DNA of 20,000 bases. It comes from Neocallimastix lanati (nom. inval.) (Eukaryota; Neocallimastigomycota; Neocallimastigomycetes; Neocallimastigales; Neocallimastigaceae). The notes under the pieces are model-generated. The model was not told where the DNA came from and made no database searches. It saw nothing but the letters and a program-made list of their open reading frames with translations. Below are positions 17,208 to 20,000 of this stretch, one piece after another. Location: assembly GCA_016946835.1 (NCBI GenBank), contig JACVTC010000014.1:302501-322500 (forward strand), in the 5' to 3' direction. Numbering within the stretch: the stretch's first letter is position 1; every line of letters starts with the position of its first letter. Both the position numbers and the translations under genes were made by a program.

Positions 17208-20000
17208 ATGTGGCATTCTGCAAGGTAATTAGTATATATAACTATTTCATTAATATTAATGATTTATTATATTAATCTTTATAATTATTATTATTATTAT
17301 TATTATTATTATTATTATTATTATTATTATTATTATTATTATTATTATTATTATTATTATTATTATTATTATTATTATTATTATTACTATCAAAAATTGT
17401 AAATCATTCAATACTGTTGTTCGTAATATTTATAAATCATATTTCAAATGAACTTATTAATAAAAATACAAATATTTACACACTTGAAAATTATTATTTC
17501 ATTCGCATACTAATATACGAAAAATAAAAAAAATAAAAAATAAAAAAATTATATATATATAAAATATTTCAATAACACAATAGAAAACAAGAAAAAAAAG
17601 TAATTTCAATTTATAATAATGGCAATTTTTAATATAATGATATAGCATTTATTTTTCATATAGCAATAATAAATAATAAATTAAATGTATTATTAAAATC
17701 ATATTTTATTATACATATATAATATTATATCAATAATTAATAAAAAATGATAAAATAACTAATGAAATAAACTAAAGGTCTACGCTATTATGGTAGATCA
17801 TAAAAAAAGAGTTGAACGTCGAAAAGCTTATTATGAATCAAAGGTGAATAATTTTTCTGTTATTTAAAGCATTAATTTTTAATTATACTTTAATAATTCA
17901 TAAATAAAATAAAGACAATTATATCAAAAACTAATTAATAATAATTGATAATAAAGTAATTAAAACAGTTTGAAATAATAACAATATAAAACATTAATAA
18001 TCAATGTATAATATTTAAATTTTAATAGTTACAAGTTCAAACTACTATTTTTATAAAAATAATGATACACTAAATTATTCAATAATATTAACTTAATATT
18101 TAATATTATTTAATTAATAATTAAATTTTCTTTTTCTTTTTGTAAAATAATTTTATATATTATTTTATAAAATGTTTTTTTTTTTTTTTTTTTATTAATT
18201 AATATAATAAAATAAAAATTTTATAACTTAAGCTTGGGGACCCAAGTCAACTCTTACGTATTGTTGGTTCTGCTGTAAAAATTATTCCAGATGCAGAAAG
18301 TTATTACTATCATGAAAATTTGGATAATTTGTGGGTTAAACAATTACATTTTATTTTCAAAAAAAAAAAAAAAAAAAAAAAAAAAAAAAAAAAAAAGATA
18401 ATAATAATAATAATAATAATATAAATATAAATAAGATTTTTAATAGTATCTATAGTATTAATAATATAAATTCAATATCAATACAAAATTTATATTGTAT
18501 ATATAACCTATTTTATTTTTAATAGCTATATATATAATAATATCAATAATGTTTTGAATAAATCCACTAAAAAGTTCTTTTTTTTTTTTTTTTTTTTTTT
18601 AAATTTATATATATAATATTAATTTATGAATAATAATTTTAATAATTTTTTTTTTTTTTTTTAAAAAAAAACGAACAAAAATACTATTAATATACATTAT
18701 TCTATTAATAAATTTTTAATATTAAAACTATAATATTTCATATATTATCCCATAAAAAAAATTCTTTTAATTACAAATACATATAATTAAAAAAATTCAT
18801 ATATACATATTAACGTAATAACTTTAACAATCAATGATTAATGATATACTAATAAACAATGATAAATATGGTTAAAAATCTTTTTTATCCAAATTAAAAT
18901 GAATTTATAATTATTTTATCACTTTTAAATATAAATATATATATATATATATATATATATATATATTTTTAATTTTTTTTTCTTATTTTCTTTTATATTG
19001 GTATAAATTAGAATGCAATGGCAAGGAGATAAGGAGGTTAAAATTGATAGGTAAAGAAAAATTAAGAAATTCGATAACAACACAATAATAAGAATAATAA
19101 TAATAATAATAATAGTAAATATATATATATATACTATACAGATTTGATGGGAGAACTTTATTAGATTTTATTTCAGAAGTTCCTCCTAATCCAAATTTTA
19201 AAAGTGAAGATGATACTATTCAGGAAGAATTAAATTTTGAACGTTATGCCGATTTAATTAATAATGAGAGACTGCAAGGTTAATCAATGCTTAATAAAAT
19301 AGTATAGAATAATAATGATAATAAAATATATAATTCTTTTTATATAAATTTAATATAATTGTATAGATGAGGTGACTAATATTTAATCACTATAATTTAC
19401 ACCCCTTTTTTATTTAAATTATTCTTATAATTATATATATATATATATATTAGTGGAAGATAAGGACTGTCTTGAAGAAATTGAAAGAGAATGGAATAAT
19501 ATTTTATTAAAAAGTTCTAAAGCAATGAAAGGGTAAATTTAATATTAATTTTTTGTATAAATAAAAAATAAAAATAATAATAATAAAAAAGAGGATGAAA
19601 ATAAAAATAATCATAAAAATAAAGATTACTAAAATTTTAATATAACCTATATATTGTTATGTTTAATTTTTAATAGGAAAGGTTCTGATGATGAAGATGA
19701 AGAAATTGAAAAGGAAGATATTAATATGTATTATATCCTTTTTATTTTTATTTCTATTTTTATTTTTATTTTTATTTTTTTTTAAAAAGAAAAAAAAAAT
19801 TATATATATTATATTCCTTAACCGCAATTTTCAATATACATCCCAAATTATATAAAGTTATCAATGATTTACCAGAAGAAGAATGTCTTGAATTAAATAA
19901 ACTTGGTGAAAATTATGGTGTTAAAAATTACTGTAGAATGATTCGAATTATAAAGTACATATTCATATACTATTATGAAATTAATAATAATAGTAAAGTA
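17208..20000 (+). CDS. CLASRP: CLASRP/SWAP2-type alternative splicing regulator, exons 1-9 (partial, runs off right edge)
   Basis: Exons: 17208-17224, 17584-17599, 17778-17843, 18233-18330, 19012-19050, 19142-19278, 19454-19532, 19677-19732 and 19840-19954. The last ends at a GTACAT donor, so the gene continues outside. The 207 visible residues begin MWHSAR-KQEKK-VYAIMVDHKKR. This matches the MWHEAR...MVDxKKR start of CLASRP/SWAP2 proteins, which are nuclear SR-related splicing regulators with a DRY_EERY (SWAP N-terminal) domain. Later landmarks keep the family order: RKAYYESKLGDPSQLL, MQWQGDKEVKIDRFDGR, NFERYADLI, an acidic stretch (GSDDEDEEIEKED), and LELNKLGENYGVKNYCRMI. The Arg/Ser-rich C-terminal half would lie beyond the window. 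The start was fixed by the MWH motif in a 17-nt exon. An internal ATG at 17790 would lose conserved residues. Intron 8 is AT-AC (see below). Confidence 0.87.
17225..17583 (+). other. Intron 1 of the CLASRP-like gene
   Basis: 359 nt, GTAATT donor, CAATAG acceptor, phase 2. It carries the long TTA array. Confidence 0.78.
17284..17388. repeat. Long (TTA)n microsatellite in CLASRP intron 1
   Basis: About 34 uninterrupted trinucleotide copies, starting about 60 bp after the first 5' splice site. Confidence 0.95.
17584..17599 (+). other. 16-nt microexon (exon 2) of the CLASRP-like gene
   Basis: It lies between CAATAG and GTAATT. It finishes the Arg codon begun in exon 1, then encodes KQEKK and ends in phase 0. 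This supplies exactly the five residues missing between MWHSAR and VYAIMVDHKKR in the family pattern. Confidence 0.78.
17600..17777 (+). other. Intron 2 of the CLASRP-like gene
   Basis: 178 nt, GTAATT donor, CTAAAG acceptor, phase 0. The next exon opens GTC TAC GCT ATT ATG. Confidence 0.78.
17844..18232 (+). other. Intron 3 of the CLASRP-like gene
   Basis: 389 nt, GTGAAT donor, CTTAAG acceptor, phase 0. The join gives YYESK-LGDPSQ. Confidence 0.82.
18331..19011 (+). other. Intron 4 of the CLASRP-like gene
   Basis: 681 nt, GTGGGT donor, AATTAG acceptor, phase 2. It is the longest intron in this gene and carries a ~39-nt A run (about 18358-18396), further T runs and a (TA)n run (about 18937-18965). 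The join gives NLDNL-MQWQGD. Confidence 0.8.
19051..19141 (+). other. Intron 5 of the CLASRP-like gene
   Basis: 91 nt, GTAAAG donor, ATACAG acceptor, phase 2. The join gives KIDR-FDGRT. Confidence 0.85.
19279..19453 (+). other. Intron 6 of the CLASRP-like gene
   Basis: 175 nt, GTTAAT donor, ATTAG acceptor, phase 1. The join gives RLQ-V-EDKD. Confidence 0.78.
19533..19676 (+). other. Intron 7 of the CLASRP-like gene
   Basis: 144 nt, GTAAAT donor, TTTAATAG acceptor, phase 2. The join gives AMKG-KGSDD. Confidence 0.83.
19733..19839 (+). other. Intron 8 of the CLASRP-like gene: U12-type AT-AC intron
   Basis: 107 nt. It begins ATATCCTTTT, contains TTCCTTAAC at 19814-19822 and ends TATAC at 19839. 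These are the minor-spliceosome 5' splice site, branch-site consensus and AT-AC terminus. Branch A to 3' end is about 18 nt. Splicing in phase 1 gives EDINMYYPKLYKVINDLP with no stop. The U2-type alternative (GTATTA at 19728, AAAG ending at 19857) gives a stop within four codons. Confidence 0.82.

Follow-up and report, generated by a model that had tools for sequence, protein, structure and literature searches.

Does a very AT-rich fungal genome carry a gene with an intron that is removed by the minor (U12-dependent) spliceosome, and does the same genome hold the components of that machinery? The question is raised by a 20-kilobase (kb) stretch of gut-fungus DNA (G000:C46:302501-322500; the window, i.e., the whole stretch analysed), in which a gene on the plus strand for a CLASRP-like splicing regulator is interrupted at 19733..19839 by a 107-nucleotide (nt) AT-AC intron in phase 1, the eighth intron of the gene. 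Judging from sequence, we consider intron 8 very probably a true minor (U12-type) AT-AC intron (probability of about 0.9), because of its splicing signals, the rarity of these signals by chance, the presence of minor small nuclear RNA (snRNA) genes and U11-48K in the genome, and a second AT-AC intron elsewhere for which none of the in-frame joins tested was GT-AG or GC-AG. The fungal lineage proposed in the original prediction, an earlier note on this DNA, is supported by another locus of the genome (L022), which encodes two fungal dockerin domains (PF02013, CBM_10; 109.8 bits) with Endoglucanase 45A as the best PDB match (expectation value [E] 2.7e-17); within Fungi, such dockerins are a mark of Neocallimastigomycota, and the organism is thus most likely one of these anaerobic gut fungi. 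The GC content of the window is 17.2%, and a passage of PMC12341934 gives a range of 16-22% for this phylum, with Neocallimastix assemblies at ~18%.

Intron 8 opens with the U12-type 5' splice site ATATCCTT (19733..19740, plus strand), which fits RTATCCTT and is complementary to the U11 5' end AAAAAGGG. It contains the branch element TTCCTTAAC (19814..19822, plus strand), which fits TTCCTTRAY and is complementary to GUAAGGA of U12, with the branch A placed by inference at 19821. The 3' splice site AC (19838..19839, plus strand) lies 18 nt past this A. U12-type introns end in AT-AC or GT-AG and have roughly 10-20 nt between branch site and 3' splice site, and intron 8 falls within this expectation on both counts. 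All three signals, as well as the intron borders, were thereby located where the original prediction had placed them. Within the window, ATATCCTT and TTCCTTAAC each occur once, on the strand of CLASRP. Based on 2,000 dinucleotide shuffles, the exact joint pattern (5' site, branch element and following AC) is expected 0.001 times per 20-kb strand, and a relaxed version, which has one occurrence in the real window, 0.077 times.

The CLASRP-like gene, read from 17208 and extending beyond the end of the window, comprises nine readable exons (all on the plus strand) and eight introns, of which introns 1-7 are GT-AG and intron 8 is AT-AC. Exon 1 (17208..17224) encodes MWHSA plus 2 nt, and exon 2 (17584..17599) is a 16-nt microexon with AG/GT borders that completes R, encodes KQEKK and is needed for the reading frame (RKQEKK). 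These are followed by exons 3 (17778..17843), 4 (18233..18330), 5 (19012..19050), 6 (19142..19278) and 7 (19454..19532), by exon 8 (19677..19732), which encodes an acidic stretch 5' of the AT-AC intron, and by exon 9 (19840..19954), with a likely GT donor at 19955. Joined, the nine exons give an open frame of 208 residues with the N-terminus MWHSARKQEKK and a DRY_EERY domain at residues 41-150 (PF09750, 100 bits); the start fits MWH.ARKQE.K, which we take to be that of human CLASRP. In a PDB search, the CLASRP query hit protein A chains through weak, repeated stretches (best E 2.6e-8) as well as amine oxidase, and both kinds of match were taken as chance. Since retention of intron 8 leads to an in-frame stop inside the intron, full-length CLASRP would depend on the minor spliceosome. 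The genome yielded a single further copy (L073, G000:C334:1544150-1544550), a degraded, partial version of exons 6-7; the match (72%) starts in exon 6, where it contains a stop, and ends 16 nt inside intron 7. This paralogue was uninformative as a test of the AT-AC intron. Integrase-like residues were seen by eye near the copy.

A search of the genome (199 Mb, 762 contigs) with Rfam models, run alongside 14 control genomes, identified genes for the minor snRNAs, whereas the U11, U12, U4atac and U6atac models matched none of the controls. Two U6atac genes were found (L004:1501-1649, minus strand, and L005:1501-1646, plus strand; 57.4 and 56.4 bits, cut-off 33), together with one U12 gene carrying GUAAGGA (56.8 bits, cut-off 53), one U11 gene (40.5 bits, cut-off 39) and one U4atac gene, which pairs with the genome's own U6atac over 16 base pairs (bp) of stem II (-26.2 kcal/mol). 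U11-48K is represented by a CHHC zinc finger (zf-U11-48K model, 33.9 bits; the same model matches 1 of the 14 control genomes), and an exon further downstream in this gene gives a 38-residue match (E 3.7e-8) to a chain that the PDB names U11/U12 48 kDa protein. Hence, the check proposed by the original prediction, a search for minor snRNAs and U11/U12-specific proteins, recovered all four snRNA genes and U11-48K. The further claim of a functioning U11/U12/U4atac/U6atac machinery held largely at the gene level, with U4atac matching the U6atac helix and U6atac present twice, but U6atac is not fully canonical (see below).

The predicted pairings agree with this assignment. The genome's U11 would form 8 bp with the 5' site of intron 8 (-6.7 kcal/mol) and its U12 would form 6 bp with the branch element (-6.5 kcal/mol); across three candidate introns, including two described below, predicted energies range from -5.8 to -6.7 kcal/mol for U11 from AAAAAGGG and from -6.5 to -7.7 kcal/mol for U12. 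The U11 value depends on where the RNA begins: the start aligned by Rfam, AGAAUAGGC, fits the 5' site of intron 8 poorly (-3.0 kcal/mol), and 134 nt further upstream there is a perfect AAAAAGGGCUUAUG. We infer that this upstream start is probably the true 5' end and that the Rfam alignment seems to miss it. Folded from there, U11 (L008:1367-1632) would span ~266 nt and have an expanded junction, and GCUUA pairs with UGAGC just 5' of the Sm-type site (-72.5 and -72.8 kcal/mol with the 5' end held free or not, respectively). Pairing of the 5' AAAAA with the U-run of the Sm site in the unconstrained fold was taken as an artefact.

Other candidate minor introns were sought by a script scan of 63 of 69 loci (the six snRNA and U11-48K loci left out), and coding flanks on both sides were seen by eye at four: the CLASRP locus (L018), L003, L020 and L024. 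The minus strand of L003 carries an RPC3/POLR3C-like gene with an AT-AC intron (ATATCCTTT, TTCCTTAAC, AC) whose 5' site and branch element are the same as those of the CLASRP intron. POLR3C_WHD scores 38.8 bits on the downstream exons; on the segment across the intron it reaches 22.1 bits, which is under the cut-off. Among the five in-frame joins tested at this locus, four were AT-AC and one GT-AC, with none GT-AG or GC-AG. The product of the AT-AC join that starts at ATATCC can be aligned across the junction, with no gaps, to an RPC3-named PDB chain, although E is modest (0.0045). L020, also on the minus strand, holds a TRM9-like methyltransferase gene with GTATCCTTTT and TTCCTTAAT, whose best match in the PDB is to a tRNA methyltransferase (E 5.2e-10). 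Among the 13 in-frame joins at this locus there is a single GT-AG join, which starts from GTATCC and yields the stretch matched in the PDB. In both L003 and L020, T-rich runs separate the branch element from the 3' site. L024 was dropped, as a GT-AG reading (GAA/GTAAAATATCC to GCAG/TTG) was judged equally good by eye.

Motif counts across the genome were a poorer guide. The pattern ATATCCTT-N24-54-TTCCTTAAC gave three matches compared with none in the control; one is the RPC3-like L003, another (L001) lies inside a long open frame, and the third (L002) has no evident coding flank. The pattern TATCCTTT-N51-81-TTCCTTRAY gave 44 matches compared with 17 in the control, 12 of the 44 belonging to one repeat family and others to smaller families, and with a spacing of N20-50 it gave 36 compared with 14, 19 of them from another repeat. 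Because such counts are inflated by repeats, the two motifs by themselves do little to identify introns in this genome.

The U6atac divergence would be the one observation likely to surprise a specialist. U6atac typically carries an AAGG element, which pairs with UCCUU of the 5' splice site, and an AGC triad. Both copies here read GUAUGAGCCGAGAGACAGUUGGCAC, compared with GUaUGAAAGGAGAGAAGGUUAGCAc in the Rfam consensus, such that the pairing element is GCCG(A) rather than the expected AAGG(A) and the first base of the triad is changed from A to G (GGC). The two genes nonetheless look used, because U4atac fits them in stems II and I, they end in T-runs, and a TATTTA-like element near -32 is common to them and four good U6 genes; in stem I, a C of U4atac faces the new triad G, in a helix weaker than that of the consensus (-7.6 vs -9.5 kcal/mol). 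The copies are identical at 834 of 851 aligned downstream positions, indicating a recent duplication, and hence they count as one witness. A search for a third, normal U6atac with a pattern allowing at most one mismatch matched the same two sites only, with 5,106 of the 243,762 bases in loci L001-L079 being N. The U6atac-like pattern also had one match in a collection of viral contigs and eight in bacterial-titled genome contigs, the eight being close to the chance estimate. A search for 5' sites recoded to pair with GCCG gave no support within the length range covered (TATCGGYT-N40-70-TTCCTTRAY: one match, compared with nine in a reversed-pattern control). The core of U6 is normal (ACAGAGAAGAUUAGC, ACAGAGA) in all four copies above the cut-off. 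A further U6-like sequence (L094), under the Rfam cut-off, is interrupted by a near-perfect inverted repeat.

Some of these results weigh against a minor-type intron 8. The single U4atac gene, at 47.2 bits, scores under its Rfam cut-off of 53. Neither U6atac gene has AAGG, and because GCCG replaces it, the predicted pairing of U6atac to the CLASRP 5' site is weak (-2.8 vs -7.1 kcal/mol with the consensus); the same applies to the other two candidate introns (-3.0 vs -8.7 and -4.0 vs -7.1 kcal/mol). In L003 and L020, the distance between branch element and 3' site is 74 nt and 51 nt, respectively, compared with 18 nt in CLASRP, and is thus unusually long in two of the three candidates, although the true branch site in each may be a weaker one closer to the 3' site. 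The motif pair is without clear enrichment genome-wide once repeats are removed. Finally, in-frame GT-AG alternatives to the AT-AC join are present, the serious ones being 19728-19789 and 19533-19789.

These alternatives emerged when donors between 19677 and 19799 were combined with acceptors no further than 19924, leaving exon 8 whole or shortened; 52 combinations were in frame (21 AT-AC, 22 AT-AG, 5 GT-AG and 4 GT-AC). In four of the five GT-AG joins, splicing from a donor at 19682 would remove the acidic stretch; the remaining one (19728-19789, 62 nt) retains most of exon 8 and replaces MYY with 18 residues (IKKKLYILYSLTAIFNIH), a net gain of 15. Additional to the 52, a join from exon 7 to 19790 that skips exon 8 (19533-19789, 257 nt) is also in frame, with the acidic exon lost and KKKLYILYSLTAIFNIH read instead. 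The assertion that only the AT-AC splice keeps the frame was therefore mistaken, whereas the GT-AG pair named alongside it (19727 to 19858) is indeed absent from the in-frame solutions.

With 19789 as its last position, a GT-AG intron of the major type, from either of these donors and with the U12-like motifs as chance occurrences or relics, would leave a frame free of stops. Introns 2 and 3 have acceptors (TAAAG and TTAAG) similar to its AAAAAG, and GTAAAT, which follows exon 7, is a good donor. However, the donor at 19728 (GTATTA) has T at +4 and A at +6, neither of which is shared by any of the gene's seven GT-AG donors, and no branch-like element was seen by eye 5' of 19789. The residues gained would come from a poly-A/T-rich stretch, whereas the AT-AC join avoids such A/T-rich filler and retains the acidic exon, an open stretch with a normal acceptor (AATAG). 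Moreover, a perfect U12 5' site and branch element, jointly expected 0.001 times per 20-kb strand, would be left unused. We consider a GT-AG intron very improbable on this balance.

Autoregulation, in which CLASRP would control the splicing of its own minor intron, as the original prediction suggested, would add to the minor-intron explanation rather than replace it. Intron retention would truncate the protein, but CLASRP is, to our knowledge, not a known minor-spliceosome factor, and we hold the idea to be very doubtful. Lastly, U2-type AT-AC introns removed by the major spliceosome independently of U12 exist in other organisms and would make the poor predicted U6atac fit harmless, but here the exact minor-type 5' site and branch element complement the organism's own U11 and U12, and the ACAGAGA core of its U6 does not fit ATATCCTT (by eye), making this origin scarcely credible.

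If intron 8 is a minor intron, U11, through its 5' end AAAAAGGG, would pair with the 5' site and U12, through GUAAGGA, with the branch element; U11 would then be replaced by the U4atac/U6atac.U5 particle, and 19732 would be joined to 19840 in phase 1. We infer, on sequence grounds, that the minor spliceosome would be expressed and assembled and would splice the CLASRP intron. The role of the AAGG element at the 5' splice site is also described in part of PMC4980772, which further reports a minigene suppressor assay in Chinese hamster ovary (CHO) cells in which a P120 5' site mutated at CC5/6 was rescued by U6atac mutated at GG14/15. This compensatory rescue indicates that U6atac-5' site pairing matters in CHO cells. 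In the present lineage, either this pairing is loosened or shifted or a normal U6atac gene lies in unread sequence. Tentatively, and with the odds against it, the catalytic core of the minor spliceosome may have been rewired in these gut fungi: U6atac would have lost AAGG and changed the first base of its triad from A to G, with U4atac fitting this change, whereas the introns, U11 and U12 would have stayed ancestral. The 5' site might then be chosen almost solely by U11 and U11-48K, and the pairing of U6atac, on taking over, would be slight or re-registered. Provided that the U6atac change is genuine and that the introns are spliced, the case bears on how much 5' splice-site recognition U6atac must re-read after U11 leaves. 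The locus itself offers a clear example, confined to one gene, of probable AT-AC minor splicing where the fungal genome is very AT-rich, and an entry point to the minor machinery of a gut fungus.

Elsewhere in the window, a PIG-X/PBN1 gene lies at 13756-14709 (minus strand, 56.1 bits), and a 589-codon open frame at 7906-9675 (plus strand) encodes threonine/proline-rich repeats and a cysteine-containing end, with no Pfam match. Similar open frames at 10717-11064 of the window (containing GSTVPYIVGLAEYLANTIPII) and at L096:115-450 (containing GSTVPFIVGLGEYLANTIPII) probably represent a dispersed repeat.

Minor introns were found earlier in Rhizopus and Phycomyces, according to part of the text of PMC2846911, and a passage of PMC10639083 reported them in Neocallimastigomycetes in 2023. 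Since minor introns have already been reported in this fungal group, CLASRP intron 8 is a new, or simply unlisted, example of a known intron type. No text joining "Neocallimastigomycota" with "U12" was found in the open literature (PMC10639083 writes Neocallimastigomycetes), nor one joining "U6atac" with "anaerobic fungi", supplementary tables and subscription journals being outside that scope. With the minor AT-AC introns of early-diverging fungi (Rhizopus, Phycomyces, Rhizophagus, Basidiobolus and Neocallimastigomycetes), intron 8 shares a U12-type 5' site and branch element, AT-AC ends, phase 1 and the presence of minor snRNA genes in the genome. It differs in its host gene, as no link between CLASRP and minor introns was found in the open literature, a scope that leaves out the supplementary lists of PMC10639083, which may name CLASRP. 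Because U6atac lacks the AAGG element, we do not class the minor machinery as canonical, although the intron is still classed as minor-type. In common with the canonical minor spliceosome of humans and plants, the genome has the U11 5' end AAAAAGGG (by our reading of its start), GUAAGGA in U12, stem II of U4atac, Sm-type sites and U11-48K. It departs from that system in a U11 of ~266 nt by our reading, compared with 134 positions in the Rfam model, and in a U6atac with GAGCCGAGAGACAGUUGGC in place of the Rfam consensus GAAAGGAGAGAAGGUUAGC.

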